From Verrucomicrobiota bacterium (lineage in GTDB: Bacteria; Verrucomicrobiota; Verrucomicrobiia; Opitutales; Opitutaceae), in assembly GCA_016871755.1 (NCBI GenBank), contig VHCJ01000016.1:1-64000 (forward strand): a stretch of DNA of 64,000 nucleotides, written 5' to 3'. The position numbers and the translations under genes were made by a program. Shown in pieces: positions 1 to 11,731 of this stretch (its first letter is position 1; every line of letters starts with the position of its first letter). Under the pieces are notes generated by a model. That model searched no databases, was not told where the DNA came from, and was given only the letters and a program-made list of their open reading frames with translations.

Positions 1-269
1 ACTCGTCCAGCCGGCCGCGCCTCTTCCTCAACGCGGAAGGACTCGGACCCGAGGCGCGCGTGCGGGTCGAACTCCTCGATGCACGACTGGGTGCCATTGC
101 GGGTCTGGCCGGCGCTGACGCGGCGGTGGTGGACGAGAGCGGATTCCGAACCCCCGTGCGATGGAAGAATCCCGACACGTCACTCCCGCCTGAATATTGC
201 GTGCGAATCACCTTCGATGGCGCCGCTCGGGATCTGATCCGGCTAAGTGCAATCTACGTCGAACCCTAG
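1..269 (+). CDS. C-terminal end of an exported glycoside-hydrolase-like protein (partial)
   Basis: The reading frame is open from base 3 and ends at TAG 267-269, so only about 88 C-terminal residues are visible. The GTG at base 60 is an internal codon rather than a start, because the frame continues upstream in the same style (RPRLFLNAEGLG then VRVELLDA). The pattern LFLNAEG, VRVELLDA, a short loop, then VRWKN and a closing strand ending IYVEP is typical of the C-terminal beta domain of large exported proteins with a GH32/43-like N-terminal half in Planctomycetes and Verrucomicrobia. That assignment is from memory of the family. No catalytic residues are in view, so the substrate is unknown. 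The protein entering the right edge of the window looks like the N-terminus of the same family. Confidence 0.55.
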   Translation, partial: SSSRPRLFLNAEGLGPEARVRVELLDARLGAIAGLAGADAAVVDESGFRTPVRWKNPDTSLPPEYCVRITFDGAARDLIRLSAIYVEP

Positions 270-401
270 ATCATTTCGCCCTCAGACCCCGTGACTCCTG
301 CGGTCCGCTCATCGCTACCCGCTCGAGACCTGACCGCCACCGCTGTCGGCGAATGAATCTAGTAAGCCCTTCATTCGGATCGAGTCTGTGCTTGCGGAAA
401 G

Positions 402-461
402 CTGGTGCCCAGAGTGGGGGTCGAACCCACAAGCCTTTAGAGGGCGGTGGATTTTGAGTCC
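402..461 (-). repeat. Displaced 3' part of tRNA-Leu(CAA), left att-like direct repeat
   Basis: These 60 bases are identical to 10006-10065, which is the 3' part of the intact tRNA-Leu(CAA). On the minus strand the copy runs from the 5' side of the anticodon stem through the anticodon loop, long variable arm, T-arm, acceptor strand and encoded CCA. Identity stops exactly at 461, and the following bases do not rebuild the D-arm, so this is not a functional tRNA. A duplicated tRNA 3' end is the classical footprint of a tyrosine-recombinase element integrated in a tRNA gene. I read this copy as the displaced original 3' end, which makes it the left boundary of an island. Confidence 0.85.
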
Positions 462-644
462 GGCTATGCGTCCGGCCGTGACCGCGTGATGGGGATTGGT
501 CTTCGGTAATCTCTTCAGACTCACCGGTGTCAACGGCGGATGAGGAGCGCTTGACCTCGCTGGCTCTCGGATAAGCGACGCTAAAGGCGGTGATTCCTTG
601 AGGGAACCAGTGGCTGTTTGCTGCATCCGAGCGATCATCGTGGT

Positions 645-851
645 ATGGCTAGGTCATTCAAAGACATCACGGGCAACATCACGAAACTCAATGATCCGTA
701 CTTCGCGGAGAAACGAGGGCTGTGGGTGATGATGGTCAAAGAAAACGACCGTTGGATCGCGATCAATAGTCGGGATGAGTTGAAGATCCGAGAATATCAC
801 GCACTCCTCGCAACCCGCAGAACCGCGAGGATCCTGAATGTCTCGGTTTAA
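645..851 (+). CDS. Small hypothetical protein upstream of the integrase remnant
   Basis: This encodes a 68-residue protein beginning MARSFKDITGN, charged and without a signal peptide or membrane segment. A longer frame could start at TTG 618, but ATG 645 looks more natural. It ends 30 bases before the integrase ATG, on the same strand, and could be cotranscribed with it. Small proteins beside integrases are sometimes excisionase-like, but I see no helix-turn-helix and do not claim that. The local base composition appears lower in GC than the surrounding chromosome. It could be a remnant of the island's mobility module or simply an unrelated small ORF. Confidence 0.4.
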   Translation: MARSFKDITGNITKLNDPYFAEKRGLWVMMVKENDRWIAINSRDELKIREYHALLATRRTARILNVSV

Positions 852-881
852 CCCACGACGCTTTCGCAGGAAAAGGTGAAG

Positions 882-1952
882 ATGGCAGAATATGCCTACG
901 GAATTCTTGGCGAGGCGCATCCGAAGGAGATTGTCGATGCAGCGCAACTGCTCTGCCAGCAGAAGAAAGCTGCAGTGGTTCCCACTGTCGTTGCCGCAGC
1001 AAAGCTCTTCTTCGAGAAGCAGGAGCAACGTCAACTTTCCGAGGCGACGATGAGAGATTACCGTCGGCTGATGCGTTTTATTGAGAAGGAGTTCGGAGAG
1101 CAGCGTTTGAGTGAGCTAACTTCTCAGAGTCTGTGCCAGTTCATCGAAAGGCCCAGCTACCTGGCGGGTAAGCGTTCTCGGTACATTTACACGAAAGCCT
1201 TCATCCAGTTCTGTGCAGGAAAGCACAACTCTCACTGCAACGGTACACCGTGGGTGTCACCGCAGGTTCTGCAGTGGCAGGCACCGAAGAGTGAGGCAAA
1301 AGACGTCTCGATCTACTCGTTCGATGAAATCGTGACTCTGCTCACACACGCTCAGAGGAGGGGAGTGTTGCCGTACTTCGTGTTCCGCCTGTTCTCGATG
1401 ATGCGAACCGAGGAGATGAAGCGATTCATCGCCATTCACCCCAAAGTCGCCGAGCACCCATTGATTTCTCTGGAGGCCCGGAGAATCTCGATCACGAATC
1501 ACCTCTTTGATCAGCCAGTGACGCCCTCAATCGAGGAAGTTTTTGCAACCAGATCCATCCGATATTGCCCCTTCAGGTGGAATACTTCTGCTGCGGCGCG
1601 CCCGCAGGTATGCTGGCGATTTCCTCGCTTTCTAGTTTTCCTGCCACAACTCCAGTTGACCCGTCGCCGGGTCGTAGCGCAGTTGGAGCGTCTGACTCTC
1701 GGCGAGTTTGACCTCGTCGAGCGTGACTATTTTCCCGCCATCGCGCAGTTCCACACGGTAGGTGCCGGGCACCAACTCCGGCAGCTCCTCGCCGAGTGTA
1801 CTGCCTTTGGCAACCAACACTCCCTGAGCATCGAATACCGCGACCGGCAGATCTTCTGCGATGGGTGCCGGGGGAGGTGGCGGTGGCGGTGGGACCAAAG
1901 CGGTCGCAGCCCCGGGGACAACAGCCGCCTTGAGCGCCGCCGCCAGTTGTAA
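882..1952 (+). pseudogene. Truncated tyrosine recombinase/integrase
   Basis: The first ~190 residues look like a phage-type integrase: an N-terminal helical core-binding domain (LSEATMRDYRRLMRFIEKEFGE, then SRYIYTKAFIQF) followed by the start of the catalytic domain (DEIVTLLTHA, then VFRLFSMMRTEEMKRF). The Arg in MMRTEE fits the box-I catalytic arginine. After about base 1510 the similarity fades, and after 1632 the frame only reads antisense through the next gene. The box-II H-x-x-R and the tyrosine are not seen, so the protein should be inactive. ATG 882 has an AGGAAAAGG sequence just upstream; GTG 876 is an alternative start. Its place 420 bases inside the left tRNA repeat fits it having driven insertion of the island. 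Confidence 0.65.
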
Positions 1953-4900
1953 GGCGTCAGAAGCCGTGCGGAATCGCCCGCCGGTGGGTGCGGTGAACGC
2001 CGTCATCTCATCCACTACCCGGCGTCCAGTGAGGGCGAAGCCGATCACTTCAAGCCGCAACGGTACTCCGAGAGCCGCGAGCTGCTTGCCGGCTTCGCGC
2101 GGGCGACCTCCGCAGCTCTCCTCGCCATCTGTGACCACGATCACGATACCACCGCCGACCTTCTTGAGATCCTCCGCTGCTTGGATTGTCGAAAAGACGA
2201 GGGGTGTTTGGCCCTGTGCGTCGGCGGCGGTGATGGCGCTGCGCAGTTTCTCGCGATCCAGTGGGCCGATTGGCACCACCAGTTCCGTGTCGGTCCGACT
2301 CCTGCTGTTGATCGAGCTGTACCGGTGACCGTAGAGCCGAAGGCCGACCTTGCTATCCGCGGGTAGTTGGTGAATCAGCTCGCGCAGGACATCCTTAGCG
2401 ACGTCGAACTTGCTGCGTTGGCGGATCTTTTCCGTCATCGAGAACGAGCAGTCAAAGACCAGCAAAATGTGATCAGGCGGCGCGACCGTCGGCGAGACCA
2501 CGGCGGGAACCACGGGCGCCGGGACCGGCGGAGGCGGAGGGGGAGGTAAAGCTGTCACGAAAAGCCGCGCGGGTTCAGCCTTCCGACTAAAGCTTCCCGT
2601 CAACGCAATTACCGGCCACATCGTCGAAGCAAAAGGCGAGGTCGAGTGGGAATCGGGCCAAGATGAGTCGGAGGACTGCCGGAGCAGGAGCCACTCAACG
2701 CCGCGGCGGAAGGCTGGCGTGTTCGTGCCGAAGCCAGCCTGACGGAGCGCATAGAGCACTTGGCCCGTGGCGAACGGGCTATCGACATCTTTCTCCTGGT
2801 TGGGGTTGACCGACCACGCCCCGCTCCGATGTTGCTCGGCCAATACCTCAAGGCCGAGCTGGCGGGCGAGCTTCTTCTCCGCCGGACCACCGTGGCGAAC
2901 CCACGCGAGTATCTTGAAAACCTTGTCCTGCGTCGTTTCCGCCGGCACCTCCTTCAACCATTCGAGGGCTCGGGTGATGTTCTGGGCAAGCGTCGGGTCG
3001 CCCCCGGCCACGAGCGCTTGGGCCCAGACTGTCATCGTCTGAACCGTTTGCAGGATCGCGCCCTGCGTGACCGGTTGGCCCTCGGAATCAGGCCAGAGTT
3101 CACCCTCGGTAGTCTGCTGCCCGGCTAGCCATCGGGCACAGGCCATCAGCTCCTTGGCTGGCTTGGGATCAGACTCAGCGTACGCAAGGGCGAGCCCGCC
3201 AAAGATAGAGTTTGTCCGGTCGGGATACTGCGGATCGCCTTCTTTCGACCGACTGACGTCGCCAAGTGGGGTCACGTGCGCCGCAGTGAAATCTGCCAGC
3301 TCTCGCTCTGCTACATCGCTTACCACATAGTCATTCCGTCGCCCCACGGTAAGCCCCATCAGCGCCTGCGACTGTACGTGGCAGCCCATGCAGTTGTTGA
3401 CCCGCTGAAATTCGACGGCACTGGCCTGCAGAAAGTAAAGTCCCTGCTGGGCCGCGTGTCGCGGTTGGAACTTCCAGTCGCTCAGGCTGGGCTGCCGCCT
3501 TCGCAAGGACTCGTAGTCTGGCGCCGATGCTTCGAACACTCGCACCGTTCGCAAACCCAGCTGCGGTTCGACGCCCTGCGCACGCTGCAGCCGAATCTTG
3601 ATGAAACGCATCTGAGTGGGCGGCAACGTCACGATCCGCGGTTCTCCGCCGGCCTCGGTGAACGTCTGCTCTGCGACCTTCTGGAAACCATCCTTTGCGG
3701 ACAGCATCGACCCCCACACCTCAATCGAGGCGATGGGCGCCGATTCACTCGCTGGAGTTACCTCGACCATGGAAACCAGCGCTGGTTCGCGCTTGAAGAA
3801 CGAGATCACGAAGTCGCACGCCAGCCCTTCATCCGCCTGCCCTCCGGCGTAGGTCCACTCTTTGGTGTTATGTGGCCGCAGCGTCATCCATGCCCAAGTC
3901 AAGCCCGCCCCTCTTTCGCCTGATACAGACTCCAGCAGCCCGCCATTCTCCGGGTCGGCGAGATCGAACTCGCCCATCTCCGGGGGCTCGCGCGTCGTGA
4001 ACACCTCGCTCTTGACCACCCGGCGCGGCGCCAGCGCCTCGCGAAATTCGATGCGGTAGCGCCCAGCCGGCAGGCCCATGCGCGGCAGCGCAATCTCCAC
4101 CGTCGATCGGTTCGCGCCCGGCCGCAGTTCGGCGAGGGCGTCGCCCCTTGACAACGCCACGACGCTTTCGCGCCGAATGCCTTGCGCCTCCTCGGCCAGC
4201 AAATGCGCCGTCAGCCGCAGCGTGGTCGGCTCAAGCGTCTCCAACGTTGCAAACAGCCGGGATGGGCGGGTCGATAGATCACCATGGGTCAACTCGTCCG
4301 GAGCCGACTCGGCCTCATGCAGACCGATTTTCAGCCGGTTGGCGATCAACGTCAGCGGCGCTGGCGTGGTGGTGAAAACCTTCGCCGCCACGGTCCGCGC
4401 CAACATGCCGCTCTCCAACACCTCCATCCGGTATCGACCCGCCGGCAGCCCACTCTCGGGAATCACGAACCGCAGGGTGACTGACTGCTCCTCCCCAAAC
4501 TGTTCCGGCGAGGCTGCCACCGCCATCTCTGATCCCTCGATAATGCCTTCCGCCTCTTCGGCAACAATGCGCCCGTTTACCTTGAGGTCTCCCGCCAGAG
4601 GTATTGTGACCCGGGCCACGATCTCCGGCGCCGATTGATAGAGCTGTGTCCCGGCACCGATGACCGCCGCAGTGCCTTCATCGAAGGCCGTGCCAAGCAC
4701 CACCACCACCGTCGCGGGATCCGGCAGCGGCGCGGGTGCGGGCTCAGCGGGCGTAGCGGTTTCCGGCTCGGACGCTGGCGTGGCGACTTCAGGACTGGAG
4801 GGGGCTTCCTCGATTGGCTGCTCCTGGGACGCTGCAATGAAATCCCCGTAACCTGGGTTCACCTCGGGCCCATCGGCGCGGTCGCCGCCAGCAAGCGCCG

Positions 4901-4967
4901 GCCCTGCCACCGCCCAAACACCCGCGACAGCGAAGGCCAAGCGACACGCAAGCAACGGTATTTTCAT
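1632..4967 (-). CDS. Exported composite protein: beta domains, discoidin-like, heme-motif toroid, vWA
   Basis: This is a 1111-aa protein with a signal peptide at residues 1-26. It has a Pro/Ala/Glu linker (about 50-85), two related beta domains (about 85-205 and 205-325, each ending GLPAGRYR...E), and a discoidin/F5-8C-like domain (about 340-480). An alpha/alpha toroid of the squalene-cyclase/prenyltransferase type follows (about 495-795), opening with a c-type heme motif CMGCH at 526-530. After a polyproline linker comes a vWA domain (about 830-1010) with an intact MIDAS (D839, S841, S843, T921, D947), then a second polyproline linker and a small C-terminal beta domain. The heme and MIDAS motifs imply periplasmic or surface redox and metal-dependent binding, but no enzyme activity can be named. 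It lies 35 bases downstream of the 461-aa gene, so the two are probably one operon. Confidence 0.85.
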   Translation of the reverse strand: MKIPLLACRLAFAVAGVWAVAGPALAGGDRADGPEVNPGYGDFIAASQEQPIEEAPSSPEVATPASEPETATPAEPAPAPLPDPATVVVVLGTAFDEGTAAVIGAGTQLYQSAPEIVARVTIPLAGDLKVNGRIVAEEAEGIIEGSEMAVAASPEQFGEEQSVTLRFVIPESGLPAGRYRMEVLESGMLARTVAAKVFTTTPAPLTLIANRLKIGLHEAESAPDELTHGDLSTRPSRLFATLETLEPTTLRLTAHLLAEEAQGIRRESVVALSRGDALAELRPGANRSTVEIALPRMGLPAGRYRIEFREALAPRRVVKSEVFTTREPPEMGEFDLADPENGGLLESVSGERGAGLTWAWMTLRPHNTKEWTYAGGQADEGLACDFVISFFKREPALVSMVEVTPASESAPIASIEVWGSMLSAKDGFQKVAEQTFTEAGGEPRIVTLPPTQMRFIKIRLQRAQGVEPQLGLRTVRVFEASAPDYESLRRRQPSLSDWKFQPRHAAQQGLYFLQASAVEFQRVNNCMGCHVQSQALMGLTVGRRNDYVVSDVAERELADFTAAHVTPLGDVSRSKEGDPQYPDRTNSIFGGLALAYAESDPKPAKELMACARWLAGQQTTEGELWPDSEGQPVTQGAILQTVQTMTVWAQALVAGGDPTLAQNITRALEWLKEVPAETTQDKVFKILAWVRHGGPAEKKLARQLGLEVLAEQHRSGAWSVNPNQEKDVDSPFATGQVLYALRQAGFGTNTPAFRRGVEWLLLRQSSDSSWPDSHSTSPFASTMWPVIALTGSFSRKAEPARLFVTALPPPPPPPVPAPVVPAVVSPTVAPPDHILLVFDCSFSMTEKIRQRSKFDVAKDVLRELIHQLPADSKVGLRLYGHRYSSINSRSRTDTELVVPIGPLDREKLRSAITAADAQGQTPLVFSTIQAAEDLKKVGGGIVIVVTDGEESCGGRPREAGKQLAALGVPLRLEVIGFALTGRRVVDEMTAFTAPTGGRFRTASDALQLAAALKAAVVPGAATALVPPPPPPPPAPIAEDLPVAVFDAQGVLVAKGSTLGEELPELVPGTYRVELRDGGKIVTLDEVKLAESQTLQLRYDPATGQLELWQEN

Positions 4968-5002
4968 GTTGGAAAAACGAGAGATAGACCGGTCGACCTC
5001 AC

Positions 5003-6388
5003 TCAGGGTAGTTCATGCTGCGTCTCGGAACTTCCGCCCCGGAAGTTCAGCTTCAGAGCCGCACCTTTCGCCACCCGGAAAACCAGCTCGCAGCGACGTC
5101 GCTCACCGGCGGGCACGTGAATCTCCGCATAGGGTCGACGCGGTCCGCGCTCAGCGATCTCATCACACGTCAACAAACCGGCCTCGGGATCAAGGAGCTG
5201 CAACTGGGCCTCCGGTTGGAAGTACTCCCCTTTGCTGCTGGTGTTCTGGACGCCGACATCCAGCACGACAAATTCTTGGCTTGGACCTGCAGACTCGCCG
5301 GCGAACACTGAGAGCCGGCGCGCGGCAATTCCAAGGCCGAACATCTCGTCGGCGAGCCGCAGTGGCATCGTCCACTCTGCCGCCTTCGCCTTTGCCGGGA
5401 CGGCGCGCACGCTCAGACGCACCGGCGTCACGTCCATGACACCCGCCTCCGTCGACGCGCGACCCAAGGTGCCAACCAGCTCCAACGATTCGGACTCTGC
5501 CGGAACGTGGAACACCATCGTGCCTCCCGTGAAGACCCCCGGAAGAAAACGGGCGTCGCTTGGCAACGTGCCCCCCACTGGCATCGCCGCGTATTCCCCG
5601 TCTGCGACGAGCACGAACGATCGCTGGGTCTCCGGCCAATCGAGCAGGTTGACCCGCTCGACCTGCGCTCCGGCCGGCAGGGAAAAATCGTAAGATGGAG
5701 CCGGACCCACGGTCCGCCACAGGCTTCGCGCCCGCAACTCGACCGCGACCGCCCGTGAACCTACGGGCACCGCTGCACTATTCTGCACCAACGCCGGATC
5801 ACTCACTGCGAACAACGCGAACTCGGCCACTGCGTTGCGCACGGCCAGCCCGGGCGGTTTCGCCTCCGGCGTTACACCCGCGAGCGCCAAGCGCAGGTGT
5901 CCTGTCGTATCATCGTAAAACTGCAGCTCCGCGCTAGAATAGGCCCCGGCGGGAATCTCGAAGACCATGTCGCCCGCGACGAAGTCACCGGGCTTGGCGA
6001 GCGTCACCCCTGCCAGGGATCTCCGACCGCCAACGCCCTCAAGCGCTCGCAGTGACCCAAGACTCGCGCCGTCGATCACCGCATAGAGGTGCTTGGCGAG
6101 CTCGCCCACCTCTAGCGCGATCGGTAGCTCACGCTCTGACGCACGCCGTCGATCAATCCGGTTTTCCCAACGACCTCGCACCACGAGCCAAACCCGGCCG
6201 ACCGGTGCACTCGTCTCGCCATACGTCTCGGTCACCCGCAGACCCTCGACCGTGAGCCGCAAGGCGCCATTTTCTGCCCACCGCGGGAAATCCGCAGCGA
6301 ACATACGGTTTGTGCCGAGCAGGCACAGCACGCCGCAGAGCAGCGCGAAAAACGACGGGGCAAGGGCGATCGGGGTTGGCGAGCGCAC
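5003..6388 (-). CDS. Exported beta-sandwich protein of unknown function
   Basis: About 461 aa if it starts at GTG 6388, which puts a clean signal peptide first (SPTPIALAPSFFALLCGV, then MFAAD). The longer frame from 6586 would overlap the start of the divergent gene and adds an Arg-rich stretch, so I prefer the shorter form. The mature part appears to be two all-beta halves. The last ~120 residues contain a pattern (EFVVLDVGVQN, a strand ending QLQLLDPEAG, then a charged loop) like DUF4352-type immunoglobulin folds. No catalytic motif is visible. It is upstream of and 35 bases from the vWA/heme protein and divergent from the transglutaminase-like gene, so the three probably serve one envelope function. 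Confidence 0.75.
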   Translation of the reverse strand: MRSPTPIALAPSFFALLCGVLCLLGTNRMFAADFPRWAENGALRLTVEGLRVTETYGETSAPVGRVWLVVRGRWENRIDRRRASERELPIALEVGELAKHLYAVIDGASLGSLRALEGVGGRRSLAGVTLAKPGDFVAGDMVFEIPAGAYSSAELQFYDDTTGHLRLALAGVTPEAKPPGLAVRNAVAEFALFAVSDPALVQNSAAVPVGSRAVAVELRARSLWRTVGPAPSYDFSLPAGAQVERVNLLDWPETQRSFVLVADGEYAAMPVGGTLPSDARFLPGVFTGGTMVFHVPAESESLELVGTLGRASTEAGVMDVTPVRLSVRAVPAKAKAAEWTMPLRLADEMFGLGIAARRLSVFAGESAGPSQEFVVLDVGVQNTSSKGEYFQPEAQLQLLDPEAGLLTCDEIAERGPRRPYAEIHVPAGERRRCELVFRVAKGAALKLNFRGGSSETQHELP

Positions 6389-6520
6389 TGGTGCAAGTGA
6401 AGAAAGTCGGCGTGCGTGAGGCGAGCGCGTTTTGCGCCATGTTGACCACCCGAAGTTCCGCCTGAGTCGCTTCGCCCACGCTTTCGGCCATCGACATCGC
6501 GCCGCCCGTAGAGCTACACC

Positions 6521-8929
6521 ATGACCACCGAAAGCCGTCTCGTCACCGCACATCCGCCCATGGTACCTCCGCATCGAATCTGCCAAATCGATCGTTGCTC
6601 CGGCCTCTGCGCCCTTCCGCGACTGATCGCCGCTCTCGTGTTCGTCAGTGCCTTCACCGGTGTCGCTTCTTCCTCACCGTCCCGTGAGGAGCGTATCGCG
6701 GCCTACGTGCAGTACTGCGCCGCCGTCCGGGAACTCATGATCGATGGCGGCCGTAGTCCCCACCACGCCGCCCCGCTGGCCACGTCTCTCGACCTCGACC
6801 CGTCCGGCCTCGCCACTTGGGTACGTGAGAAGATTGCCTACGATCCATCCGTCGGCAGTAACCGAGGAGCCGAGGGTACTCTCGCCGCTATGGCAGGGGG
6901 CGACTGGGATCGCGCGTTGCTGCTCGGCGAAATGCTCCGCGCAGGCGGCTACTCTCCACGCTATGTTGTGGTGCCCCGCACTCCGACGGAGATCGCGACC
7001 CTTCAAACCGATTGGCTAGCCCGTCCTTCGCCGTGGAGGGGCATCTCCGCCAGCGCGCCGCGACCCGCCGGCGCCGCGGTTGCTGGAGTGCTAGTCGATC
7101 ACGGCGTTAACCTCGCGAGCGTACGCAGCCGCCATGAGCGCTCGGCACAGCTTTGGGAGACAGTGCTCAACGAGTCGACCCAGCCCGTCGACGCGGTGGC
7201 GAAGAAAATCGAGTCTACCGTTAGCGGCCTTGCCCGCCCCACCGAAGCGGCAGCCGGGAGCGAGCGACGCCTCCAGCAAACATTGTCTACCCGCGTGCTC
7301 GTCGAAATCGACGTGGATGGTAAGCTCTTGATCCTCTCCCCAGGACCGGAGCCGGCGGTGCCGTCCAGCACGCTCGTCGCGGCGCTGCCCCGGCTCGAGG
7401 AGGTTCCCGAGGATCAGCGCACGCAATTCACCGTCACCGTGCAAATGGAGCCGGAAGGTGGATCAAGCGCCGTCGGGCCCATCTCCGTATTCACATGGAC
7501 GAAGGACCTCTCCACCCTCGGACTAAACTCGGCGCGGCTCGAGATCGTGCCGGTCGGCGTCTCCTACGATGAACCGGCCTACACCTGGGCGCCCGCCGTC
7601 TGGCACGAGCGCCTGAAGAAACTCAACCAGTTTCAGGTCATCTTGCGACACGGGGAGTCGGTTCTCGCCAGCTCCGCCTTCATGCGTGACGGTACGCTGC
7701 CGGACAAAGGTGGGCAGGACCAGGACGCCGGCCAGATGGGAAAAGGCTTGGGTGGTTTGTTCGGAGATGCCTTGGACGGCGAGGTGGAAGAATCCACGCC
7801 CGCCAAGAAGACGCCTCCACCAGCGGTAGCTCCCGGCTTGCCTCACTCCCTCTCCTTGGTCCTTGAGGTTCGCGAACCCGGCCAACCCGTAATCCGTCAA
7901 AAGCGGCTACTCACCGGTGCCCTCCGACCGGGTAAGCTTCCCATCTACACCGCCGACATCCTCGCTTCCGGGGGCGCACTCGGCCCGTGGTCCGTCGCTT
8001 GGCTGGCCCTCGACACCACCACGGCCAACGCCGCCCCGCTTGGCGAGGTACTCGCTTCCAGCGATCCCAAGCGCTTCGAGGGGCGCGACGATCTTAAACG
8101 CTTCCCGGCCCTTCTCTACGACTGGCAGCTCGGCCGACTCGCGCTCGCGGCACGCCTCCTGCGCGACCATCCCGACCTTACGCTGCGCACTGGCCCCACC
8201 GTCGTGCTCGTCTCAAGTCAGATCTATCCTGGTGAAGGAACAACCGGAGTCGGTGCGCGAGTCGCCCTCGACGTGGTGTGCGACGGACTCACCTTGGTGC
8301 CCCGCACGAAAGCCGCGTTCCCCACGATGTACGCGGCGAATCTGCGCCTCGGCATTGGTTCTACCCTGCTCGAAACAGCGCTCTTGAGCCGACGGCTGCC
8401 CCCTCCGGCACCCCAGGGCACCTTCGAGGCGTGGAAACTCGCCGACCGGGCTGGCCTCCGTCCGCAGGCGATGCTCGCAACGTCCCTAGGTGCAGCCGGA
8501 AGCGTCCTCCCGCATCCGCTGGCGCGGTGGGGTATCGAGGCCGGCGAAAGCGGCCGACTCCTCGTCTTCCCCGGAGGCTCCGAGCCTCGGGTATGGTGGA
8601 GCATCGATCCGACCGACGGGCGCGCCATCGGTCGCGGCGACGGCGCGGAGGGCCAGTCAGCGATGGAATACCTGCAGGTCCTGAAGATGAATCTGTCCAA
8701 TCTGAAGTGTAACTTGACCTTGATGCATGCCATGCTCGGCGGTGGCGACAATAACACCATGGCGAGAGATTGGGCCATGTGCATCACCGGCTCCGACAAT
8801 CCCGGCAGCTATCTCAACTGGACGGGATCCATGGTGGAGGTTTATGGAATCGCGGACCCAGGGTTAGCCAAAATGGGCGACTGCCTCGCCGGCGCCGTTG
8901 ATCTCATCGACTTGATCAACGGCGACTAG
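6521..8929 (+). CDS. Exported protein with degenerate transglutaminase-like domain
   Basis: This encodes 802 aa, or 789 from ATG 6560. A signal peptide ends near residue 50 (ALVFVSAFTGVASS). Residues ~95-150 resemble the core of a transglutaminase-like domain: VREKIAYDPS, GAEGTLAAMAGGDWDRALLLGEML, RAGGYSPRYV. The catalytic cysteine normally seen before the helix is absent, with Asp-Trp-Asp there instead, so enzymatic cross-linking is doubtful. A Pro/Lys-rich linker (about 425-445) leads into a long beta-rich region with no family I recognise, and a short C-terminal tail carries several Cys. It is transcribed divergently from the 461-aa and 1111-aa genes, and all three are predicted to be exported. 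Start choice between 6521 and 6560 is uncertain. Confidence 0.75.
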   Translation: MTTESRLVTAHPPMVPPHRICQIDRCSGLCALPRLIAALVFVSAFTGVASSSPSREERIAAYVQYCAAVRELMIDGGRSPHHAAPLATSLDLDPSGLATWVREKIAYDPSVGSNRGAEGTLAAMAGGDWDRALLLGEMLRAGGYSPRYVVVPRTPTEIATLQTDWLARPSPWRGISASAPRPAGAAVAGVLVDHGVNLASVRSRHERSAQLWETVLNESTQPVDAVAKKIESTVSGLARPTEAAAGSERRLQQTLSTRVLVEIDVDGKLLILSPGPEPAVPSSTLVAALPRLEEVPEDQRTQFTVTVQMEPEGGSSAVGPISVFTWTKDLSTLGLNSARLEIVPVGVSYDEPAYTWAPAVWHERLKKLNQFQVILRHGESVLASSAFMRDGTLPDKGGQDQDAGQMGKGLGGLFGDALDGEVEESTPAKKTPPPAVAPGLPHSLSLVLEVREPGQPVIRQKRLLTGALRPGKLPIYTADILASGGALGPWSVAWLALDTTTANAAPLGEVLASSDPKRFEGRDDLKRFPALLYDWQLGRLALAARLLRDHPDLTLRTGPTVVLVSSQIYPGEGTTGVGARVALDVVCDGLTLVPRTKAAFPTMYAANLRLGIGSTLLETALLSRRLPPPAPQGTFEAWKLADRAGLRPQAMLATSLGAAGSVLPHPLARWGIEAGESGRLLVFPGGSEPRVWWSIDPTDGRAIGRGDGAEGQSAMEYLQVLKMNLSNLKCNLTLMHAMLGGGDNNTMARDWAMCITGSDNPGSYLNWTGSMVEVYGIADPGLAKMGDCLAGAVDLIDLINGD

Positions 8930-9124
8930 GTCTTCCGTCCCTCGGTCTGCGGTTTCCCGATGCGCCGTTCGGAGGACGAGCGACTCAGCAGAGACGGGCG
9001 CCCTTCGCTGCGACCAAACCGGGTCGCGGCGATACTCCGCCCCAGGGCTGCGGCTCTACAAACCCGTGTTCTGGCTACCGGCTCACGTAGTCGCCCCGGT
9101 CGCTACCGCCTTGCTCGCGCGCAG

Positions 9125-9715
9125 TTACTTGAGCTTCGAAAGCTTTGCGAAGTCGATCGCGGCTGCGAATTTGGTCAGCTCCTCGCGCGAAACGCCGATG
9201 CCCTCGATCGAGACCACGTAGCGACCATCGACCACCGCCTTAATGTCACCGTTTTTCGTGGCAGCCTGGTATGTAACGGCTACTCGCTGACCCTTCACCG
9301 TCTCGAGCTTCGCGCCGCTCCCGGCCATCAAGGCAGGATTCGCGAACATCATACCGTAGGATTGTAGGAGGGGGGAGTCGGACTGCACCTGAATTGACAC
9401 CTCCGCTTCGTCCTTCGTGTAGGCTCGCTTCGCGGAGACCATGCCTCCGAGAATGGCAGCGCTCGCTCCATCGGTCTGCGGGTCCTGCGCAGTCCACCCA
9501 GCGGGCGCCGCTGGCAGGATAGCAGCGACCGCCTCCGACTTCTTCTGGCGGAGGACAGATCCGGCGAAGTCCATCGCTTGGAGTGCCTCCGTATAGTTGC
9601 CCGACTGATACAAATCGATTGCGGACTTGAGGTTATCGACGACTTCGTCCGCGTGCCCGCAGACGGTGGAGACGATGAAAGCAGCGGTGAGACTGAGTGA
9701 GCGGAGGCGTTTCAT
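9125..9715 (-). CDS. Small exported protein with TPR-like N-terminus
   Basis: A 196-aa protein starting MKRLRSLSL with a signal peptide cleaved near residue 22 (TVCGHADE). The first mature segment, DNLKSAIDLYQSGNYTEALQ, looks like one tetratricopeptide-type helical pair. The rest alternates strands and a helix, with a repeated polar pattern (GRYVVSIEG, SREELTKFAAAIDF). I cannot name a family. The frame stays open to 10354, but that extension would run through the tRNA-Leu gene, so ATG 9715 is chosen. It is the last gene inside the proposed island, 290 bases from the right repeat, and is convergent with the transglutaminase-like gene. Confidence 0.7.
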   Translation of the reverse strand: MKRLRSLSLTAAFIVSTVCGHADEVVDNLKSAIDLYQSGNYTEALQAMDFAGSVLRQKKSEAVAAILPAAPAGWTAQDPQTDGASAAILGGMVSAKRAYTKDEAEVSIQVQSDSPLLQSYGMMFANPALMAGSGAKLETVKGQRVAVTYQAATKNGDIKAVVDGRYVVSIEGIGVSREELTKFAAAIDFAKLSKLK

Positions 9716-10005
9716 AGCGGTAAGCGAGCTAGTTAAATCAGCGACCCGAAGGCAATAGCGAAGGGCTTTGGGGAACGGCTGCGGTGGTAGGGTGGAGCCG
9801 CTAGCCGTGGCGCTTCCCGAAGGGCTGCAGGCGCATGCGGCGAGGTTCTCCCCGTTCGACGGTAGTGGCGCGACGGGCGGACCTACCGCCGGCGATTTGG
9901 AGGCCTGATTTCGATGGGGGACGGGGTAGCCGACGACCGCGGGGATTCTAGCGCGTTCGAACTCTGCCCGCAGTTGCGTGTGTATGCGCGGCAACGTCGC
10001 GAAAA
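9716..10005. other. Noncoding stretch between last island gene and right repeat
   Basis: About 290 bases without a convincing gene. It would contain the promoter of the small exported protein and, if the island model is right, the element side of the attachment site next to the tRNA. I found no hairpin or second integrase here. Confidence 0.5.
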
Positions 10006-10065
10006 CTGGTGCCCAGAGTGGGGGTCGAACCCACAAGCCTTTAGAGGGCGGTGGATTTTGAGTCC
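10006..10065 (-). repeat. Right att-like direct repeat inside intact tRNA-Leu
   Basis: These 60 bases are identical to 402-461. They cover the CCA end up to the 5' side of the anticodon stem of the intact tRNA-Leu. In the integration model the element carried this 3' end and restored the tRNA, while the original 3' end was pushed to 402-461. Crossover in or near the anticodon loop is a known class of tRNA integration site. Confidence 0.85.
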
Positions 10066-10094
10066 ACTGCGTCTGCCAATTCCGCCATCTGGGC
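10007..10094 (-). tRNA. tRNA-Leu(CAA)
   Basis: 88 nt including the encoded CCA. The acceptor stem GCCCAGA/TCTGGGC pairs fully. The anticodon stem GTGGA/TCCAC has loop CTCAAAA, giving anticodon CAA (reads UUG). There is a long class-II variable arm and the T-arm GTGGG-TTCGACC-CCCAC. It is the intact target copy of the repeat found again at 402-461. Confidence 0.97.
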
Positions 10095-10375: not shown

Positions 10376-11668
10376 CTAGCCAAGCGGGATGGCGGCGGTG
10401 AGCACCTCGGGCTCGCCCGGGGTGACGAGGACGTTCTCCTCGAGGCGCACGCCGCCGAGATCGAGCAGGGGGGGGACGCGGTCCCAGTGCACGCAGTCGG
10501 CGTAGCGTTCGCGGCGCGTCGGATCCTCCAGCAGGGCCCGGATGAAGTAGATGCCCGGCTCGACTGTGATCACGTAGCCGTCGGCGAGGGGAAGGTCGCA
10601 CCGCAGCGTGCGCAGGGCGGGGCGCGGATTCGCGGCGCGGCCCGGAAGCGTGCCGCTGGCGTCGCGCACGCCCAGACCGACAAGGTGCCCGAGGCCGTGG
10701 GGGAAGAAGAGCGTGTGGGCGTCGCGTTCCACCAGTTCGGCGGGTTGGCCGCGCATCACGCCCATCGTGACGAGTCCGGCGCAGATGTCCTCCGCCGCCC
10801 GCAGGTGAATGTCCTTCCACTCGCGCCCAGGGCGGCAGCGACCCACGGCGTTCGTGAGCACCGTGGTGACAAGGGCGTGGAGGTCGCGTTGAAAGGGGTC
10901 GGGTCGCCCGCCCACCACGTAGGTGCGGGTGACATCGCAGACGTACCGGCCGACCCGGGCGCCGGCATCGACGAGGACGAAGTCGCCCGGGCGAAGGGCG
11001 CGCGACGAGGGCGAGACGTGGAGGATCGCGGCGTTGCTGCCGGCGCCGACGATGGTGCCGTAGCCGGTCCCGGTCGCGCCGGCGCGCTGGAATTCGGCCT
11101 CCAACTCGATCTGGATCGAGCGCTCGGTGGCGCCGGCCTGCAGCAGGGAGGGCAGCCGCGCGTATCCGGCGGCGGTGCAGGCGGCGGCCGCGCGCAGGAG
11201 GCGCAATTCCCCGGCGTCCTTCGGTCGCCGCGCGTGGCTGAGGTGCTCGCGGGCGGCGAGGGTGGTGGCATCCACGGGTTGCTCCACCGGGCGGGAGCCG
11301 AGGTGCACGAAGGGCCGGCCCTCCCGCGCGGAGAACCATGACGCGAGCCGGGGCAGGGGCGTGCCGGGCGCCTGAGTGCGGCCCTCCCAGATCCGCTCTC
11401 CCTCGCTGGGGACGGGCACGAAGACCTCCCACGCCTCGTCGTCGGCGAGCCGTGGATCGAAGGTCACGATGCCGCGCTCGCCCTCGGTCCCGGCGAGATA
11501 GACGTACTCGGTGTGGGAAAGGAACGGATACGTCTGGTCCGTATTCTCCGGCAACGGAACCGCGGTGCCGGCGTGGACGAGGAGTGACGCCTCGCCAAGC
11601 ACCGGGCGGAGTGCGGCCGCGACCCGCCGACGGCGGGCGCGGAGGAACGAGTCATCGGGCGACAGCAT
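10376..11668 (-). CDS. pepP: Xaa-Pro aminopeptidase (M24 family)
   Basis: 430 aa from MLSPDDSF; an upstream in-frame start at 11701 only adds a short Arg-rich stretch. This is a cytosolic metallopeptidase that removes the N-terminal residue before proline. An N-terminal creatinase-like domain (about 1-160, with the NTDQTYPF and HTEYVYLAG motifs of AMP_N) precedes the pita-bread catalytic domain. The dinuclear metal ligands can be read in order: the Asp in LVDAGA, the Asp in CDVTRTY, the His in FPHGLGHLVGL, the Glu in TVEPGIYF and the Glu in GVRLEENVLVT. Length and motif order match the family. It is probably cotranscribed with no partner, since the next minus gene is 64 bases downstream of nothing obvious. 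Confidence 0.9.
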   Translation of the reverse strand: MLSPDDSFLRARRRRVAAALRPVLGEASLLVHAGTAVPLPENTDQTYPFLSHTEYVYLAGTEGERGIVTFDPRLADDEAWEVFVPVPSEGERIWEGRTQAPGTPLPRLASWFSAREGRPFVHLGSRPVEQPVDATTLAAREHLSHARRPKDAGELRLLRAAAACTAAGYARLPSLLQAGATERSIQIELEAEFQRAGATGTGYGTIVGAGSNAAILHVSPSSRALRPGDFVLVDAGARVGRYVCDVTRTYVVGGRPDPFQRDLHALVTTVLTNAVGRCRPGREWKDIHLRAAEDICAGLVTMGVMRGQPAELVERDAHTLFFPHGLGHLVGLGVRDASGTLPGRAANPRPALRTLRCDLPLADGYVITVEPGIYFIRALLEDPTRRERYADCVHWDRVPPLLDLGGVRLEENVLVTPGEPEVLTAAIPLG

Positions 11669-11731
11669 GCAGGCCGCAGCCTGCCGTCGACGTGGCGGCA
11701 CGGCAAGCGCGACGACCCGCGCCGTCGCGGG

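Follow-up and report, generated by a model that had tools for sequence, protein, structure and literature searches.

Islands integrated in tRNA genes are catalogued in Islander, whose published description covers 3919 islands, with 2083 sites centred on the anticodon (PMC4383910). That description defines such an island by an intact tRNA gene and a displaced fragment that reaches the tRNA 3′ end, lies downstream and has the same orientation, within a size range of 2 to 200 kb. We found this arrangement, 9.6 kb in size, in a 3.67-Mb draft genome of 144 contigs from the family Opitutaceae (Verrucomicrobiota bacterium, assembly GCA_016871755.1). The window analyzed here is 64,000 nucleotides long and starts at base 1 of the 70,240-base contig VHCJ01000016.1. 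Like the Islander islands, the locus has integrase sequence inside and an anticodon-type site. It differs from them in that its integrase is truncated and has no match to PF00589, the family used there to recognize putatively active islands, so the filter would reject it (PMC4383910). Full-length relatives of this integrase gave no PF00589 match at E 0.1 either, and the filter therefore says little about this integrase family.

The feature is a decayed tRNA-Leu genomic island, ordinary in kind, with unstudied cargo. We consider it roughly 85% probable that a tyrosine-recombinase element inserted in tRNA-Leu(CAA) and is now a broken island, a figure that leaves aside the order of arrivals. Three marks of a decayed island were found: foreign composition, an uninterrupted site in a relative, and a broken integrase. 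A literature search (not full-text) returned no account that we recognized of this island or, in Opitutaceae, of any island at tRNA-Leu.

The two copies of the direct repeat (402-461 and 10006-10065; Table 1) are 9,604 bases apart and identical at 60/60 bp, with no longer exact match; when they are stretched to 397-461 and 10001-10065, 64/65 positions are identical. Under independent base composition, about 2.6e-24 such pairs of identical 60-mers would be expected in the window. ARAGORN calls tRNA-Leu(CAA) at the right end and nothing at the left copy, in line with the original prediction of a 60-bp repeat lying within a complete tRNA on the right and forming a fragment on the left. The repeat comprises tRNA positions 30-88 plus one base past the 3′ end and starts 5 nt before the anticodon, the right copy being the 3′ two thirds of the intact gene. 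The 5′ half of the window tRNA, together with the upstream sequence to 10142, matches the native place of the gene in genome G005 and one of two tRNA copies (copy B) in genome G003.

Table 1. Features of the tRNA-Leu(CAA) island and its immediate flanks (window coordinates)
Position	Strand	Feature	Evidence
3..269	+	Gene truncated by the contig end (3′ end present), in the adjacent and probably likewise foreign block; 532-aa protein in G003, resembling a glycoside hydrolase by eye	
402..461	-	Distal attachment-site copy: displaced 3′ part of tRNA-Leu(CAA)	Exact 60-bp repeat; no tRNA call
645..848	+	Open frame ending at a stop (849-851), same phase as the integrase remnant	No Pfam or PHROG match
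882..1512 (end approximate)	+	Tyrosine integrase remnant, C-terminal catalytic part missing	PHROG, profile, alignment
1632..4967	-	Cargo 1: 1111-aa protein with VWA domain (E 7.7e-8), squalene-cyclase-like stretch below cut-off, CxxCH by eye	
5003..6379	-	Cargo 2: DUF4352-like (E 9.2e-8); frame open to 6586, start uncertain	
6521..8929	+	Cargo 3: transglutaminase-like, 802 aa; sub-threshold Pfam match	
9125..9715	-	Cargo 4: 196 aa; relatives within the genus lie at a different locus	
10006..10065	-	Proximal attachment-site copy, inside intact tRNA	Exact 60-bp repeat
10007..10094	-	Intact tRNA-Leu(CAA), target gene	ARAGORN; 5′ half matches G005 and G003 copy B
10376..11701	-	pepP-like M24 peptidase in the host flank	

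If an element had inserted here, close relatives were predicted to include genomes with an intact tRNA-Leu directly followed by the sequence now left of 402, and G003, of the same genus, is such a genome. On its contig C268, an intact tRNA-Leu(CAA) (copy A, L039 13643-13730) is followed directly by 143 bases corresponding to the left flank of the window. Window positions 260-461 align there at 198/202 bases, or at 138/142 (∼97%) with the repeat left out, and the uninterrupted site ends exactly at the repeat start. The end of a further G003 contig, C332, overlaps the C268 end by exactly 141 bases, and C332 aligns to window positions 1-400 with 383/401 columns identical (∼96%). DNA joining the tRNA directly to the left flank thus exists in G003, while the window has 9.6 kb between them. 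We infer insertion in the window rather than excision in G003, where a precise excision would look identical.

G003 carries two tRNA-Leu(CAA) genes 2.9 kb apart, and copy B (L039 10676-10760) is set apart from copy A by an anticodon stem with paired changes and by a different variable arm. Copy A is 100% identical to the tRNA-Leu(CAA) of G005 and shares ∼24 upstream bases with the window. The uninterrupted site lies at this second copy, and the native place holds copy B. Because the site sits at copy A, 2.9 kb from native copy B, G003 is not a simple ancestor of the present arrangement. A 741-aa frame with no Pfam match lies between the two copies. Contig C332 (L057 1-3057) has exact 141-base overlaps to both C268 and C75, as would arise in an assembly graph with k = 141; it bears two frames that look hydrolase- or sialidase-like by eye and ends two bases before the tRNA repeat.

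The compositional shift between inside and outside that had been proposed as a check is present, the island being G+C-poor and lower in GC3. Its G+C content is 63.1%, compared with 68.9% for positions 10095-64000, where all 9,544-bp windows taken lay above the island (66.1-70.6%). The integrase region (462-1600) is lower still at 54.0%, below 528/528 windows of 1,140 bp. GC3 is 0.735, 0.728, 0.746, and 0.741 for cargo genes 1 to 4 and 0.662 for the integrase, against 0.846-0.904 for four host genes. Among 28 flanking frames conserved in the G005 or G003 stretches, 24 had a GC3 of 0.795-0.923; the remaining four (0.488-0.682, with 54-63% identity) are suspected to be wrong frames. The evidence from composition is not conclusive for cargo 4, as GC3 lies at 0.754-0.881 in seven of its relatives.

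Contrary to the original prediction, the left repeat does not appear to be the edge of foreign DNA, as the flank beyond it looks foreign too. This flank is 96% identical to G003, whereas identity is 78% for the pepP-usp stretch and 74-86% for the long matches in the following 20 kb, and the left-flank gene has an island-like composition (GC3 of 0.69 in the window and 0.75 in G003). The left flank was matched in 4/57 genomes, this one counted: the others were G003, G009 (264 bases at 88% identity; the 20 kb fetched around this match contain no tRNA), and G036 (35 bases). The block left of 402 is probably also foreign, judging from identity and composition, and two islands in tandem probably meet at the left repeat. 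Tandem arrays at one tRNA are known, with 125 arrays of two or more islands counted in the Islander description (PMC4383910). The foreign-looking block directly beyond the displaced fragment resembles such arrays. Each member of an array would have its own integrase and fragment; here the left block is visible for 401 bases, up to the contig end, too short a stretch to show a second integrase or a further fragment.

Just inside the left repeat, the truncated tyrosine integrase that had been noticed from the sequence is borne out by sequence comparison. The remnant matches a PHROG integrase family (E 5.7e-6) and a profile of four full-length relatives (E 3.3e-38), and in Pfam it gives sub-threshold SAM-like matches only. 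Aligned with the four relatives, it is similar up to approximately base 1512 and continues with unrelated residues. The conserved C-terminal features that we take to be the integrase box and tyrosine are kept in 4/4 full-length relatives and absent from the window copy. Since the C-terminal catalytic part is missing, self-excision of the island appears unlikely. In PADLOC, the remnant matched one candidate model (E 0.0015). The in-phase open frame upstream (645-848), whose start looks similar by eye, was considered as the integrase N terminus, a kinship that blastp did not support (E 0.15, not collinear). Elsewhere in the genome, a 3.2-kb contig without a tRNA (C105; L107 102-1073) encodes a second tyrosine recombinase of 324 aa, 25% identical to the remnant and matching PF00589 (E 3.2e-6), which is a possible candidate for an enzyme acting in trans.

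This integrase family occurs in 5/150 family genomes, this one counted (E 1e-5), and no relative was found beyond this genome among 387 genomes of the phylum (E 1e-12) or, at the sensitivity of the tool, in viral contigs. In G057, one of the four full-length relatives, ∼75 bases separate the integrase start from the 3′ end of a tRNA-Leu(TAA), a placement that fits a leucine-tRNA target for the family; with respect to the tRNA core, this integrase is on the side opposite to that seen in the window. The other three relatives had no tRNA in the fetched stretches, including all of the 77-kb contig of G147.

Around the target gene, pepP adjoins the tRNA in G004, G006, G007, and G008 and lies ∼10.5 kb away in G003, G005, and G009. 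By eye, this interval is a cbb3 oxidase cluster in G005 (L036 443-10881) and G003 (L039 145-10627), and the cluster is absent from the window interval. We rejected the interval genes of the relatives as a form of the same island, given this cluster and the lack of any cargo protein match in the stretches fetched around their tRNAs. On the 3′ side of the tRNA, some genes are common to G004, G006, and G008 and others to G001 and G009, while in the compared stretches G003, G005, and G007 have no gene in common with the other genomes. A profile search of the tRNA-flanking stretches of the relatives found no integrases of the remnant's family.

The products of cargo genes 1 to 3 are probably exported, judging by eye from their N termini. 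All three have relatives in the same order and orientation in G083 (Opitutaceae bacterium nzgw611, JAHFTC010000047.1). Cargo 1 is ∼62-63% identical over residues 316-1106 and 31-36% identical over the first 300, cargo 2 is 69-70% identical, and cargo 3 is 63-65% identical. The nzgw611 chromosomal cluster, split over two contigs within cargo 1, resembles the window in its VWA, DUF4352-like, and transglutaminase-like genes and their arrangement; it differs in having no tRNA in the fetched stretches of either contig and no match to the integrase profile, whereas the window module lies between tRNA-derived repeats. Cargo 3 was found in 2/150 family genomes and in 12/387 phylum genomes at E 1e-5 (this one counted in both), with 7 of the 11 others in the phylum matching by ∼65-127 residues only. 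G003 may not be one of the 150 genomes in which cargo 1 and cargo 3 were sought. Four of the phylum genomes with cargo 3 were fetched: a cargo-2 relative lies nearby in G336, G185, and G452 and a cargo-1 relative in G336 and G185, while G339 has neither. Given this co-occurrence in G083 and in phylum genomes, cargo 1-3 is a conserved module.

Both Opitutaceae copies of cargo 3 seem to have a tryptophan (W129) at the usual position of the catalytic cysteine of transglutaminases, and cargo 3 may therefore not be an active enzyme. Searched by sequence against solved structures, neither cargo 1 (E 0.001) nor cargo 3 (E 0.1) gave a match. Folds predicted from two-sequence alignments were not usable, with a mean pLDDT of 43.8 for cargo 2 and 29.3 for cargo 3. 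None of the four cargo proteins matched a PADLOC model at E 0.01.

Cargo 4 stands apart from the other three. Its relatives were found in 18/141 genomes, this one counted; the genus accounts for seven of these genomes, and the same search found no relative in G002, G003, or G005. In the present genome, contig C26 (L103 6997-7098) has only the last 34 codons of a cargo-4-type gene, near sequence collinear with the G009 locus. Island cargo 4 and this remnant agree at 21/34 residues, compared with 19-21 between the remnant and the genus copies, and island cargo 4 branches near genus sequences. Our reading of these comparisons is that island cargo 4 would be a replacement of the lost chromosomal gene, the alternative being a moved or paralogous gene.

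Taken as an insertion, the locus suggests the following course. The element's own copy of the 3′ part of tRNA-Leu would have recombined with the tRNA-Leu(CAA) gene, so that a complete tRNA was regenerated on the right (10007-10094) and the displaced 3′ fragment remained on the left (402-461). Before this event, the tRNA would already have been followed by the other, probably acquired block left of 402, giving two islands in tandem. The integrase would have lost its C-terminal catalytic half or come without it, and the island could leave only through an enzyme working in trans on the intact repeats. We infer both this order of arrivals and the inability to excise. Window and G003 differ at 4 of 132 bases over 270-401, so at most about one change would be expected in the displaced 60-bp fragment, and none was seen. 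The island may therefore be young even though its integrase is broken, which would fit arrival in a defective state. As to the kind of element, the frames scanned do not identify a prophage or phage satellite, the six compared with PHROGs giving the integrase, one family of unknown function, and a weak tail-fiber match (E 0.029), nor an integrative conjugative or mobilizable element, no relaxase or type IV secretion genes having been found in Pfam among the island frames scanned.

The original prediction held that all bases between the repeats arrived as one integrated element. Insertion at tRNA-Leu is upheld by the G003 site and by composition; a single arrival of all the bases is not, as the integrase departs from the cargo in G+C and GC3 and cargo 4 is a genus-level gene. 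The same two facts give some room to a mosaic built in place, in which an integrase element inserted and was mostly deleted, the cargo arriving later by other recombination between the repeats. The integrase has a G+C content of 54% and a GC3 of 0.66, compared with 60-65% and 0.73-0.75 for the cargo, and it is cut off just before the cargo starts. Against such piecemeal assembly, however, the four cargo genes are nearly equal in GC3, cargo 1-3 keeps one conserved order, the unchanged repeats leave little time, and inspection of 1512-1632 by eye showed no insertion sequence. We regard a mosaic, which is itself compatible with insertion at the tRNA, as possible but less likely than not.

Far less probable is that no site-specific insertion took place, the 60 bp reflecting a chance duplication of the tRNA 3′ part or an assembly join and the integrase remnant being incidental. 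The draft state of the genome (144 contigs, with the window at a contig end) lends this some plausibility, a 60-bp repeat being a spot where assemblies can fail, and G003 shows that whole duplication of tRNA-Leu(CAA) is possible. Yet the uninterrupted site in G003 ends exactly at the repeat start, and integrase, repeat geometry, and composition agree with one another. Insertion of a tyrosine-recombinase element, now broken, remains the reading that we favor.

For a family of largely uncultured bacteria, the locus provides a base-exact island border together with an uninterrupted site in a relative. It also points to a rare integrase family, one member of which lies beside another leucine tRNA, and to an unstudied three-gene module, its products probably exported, that has moved as cargo. 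More tentatively, repeated accretion at one tRNA-Leu may have brought in both this module of three exported proteins and a replacement for a lost chromosomal gene, in which case an island that is now immobile would supply a function of the genus.
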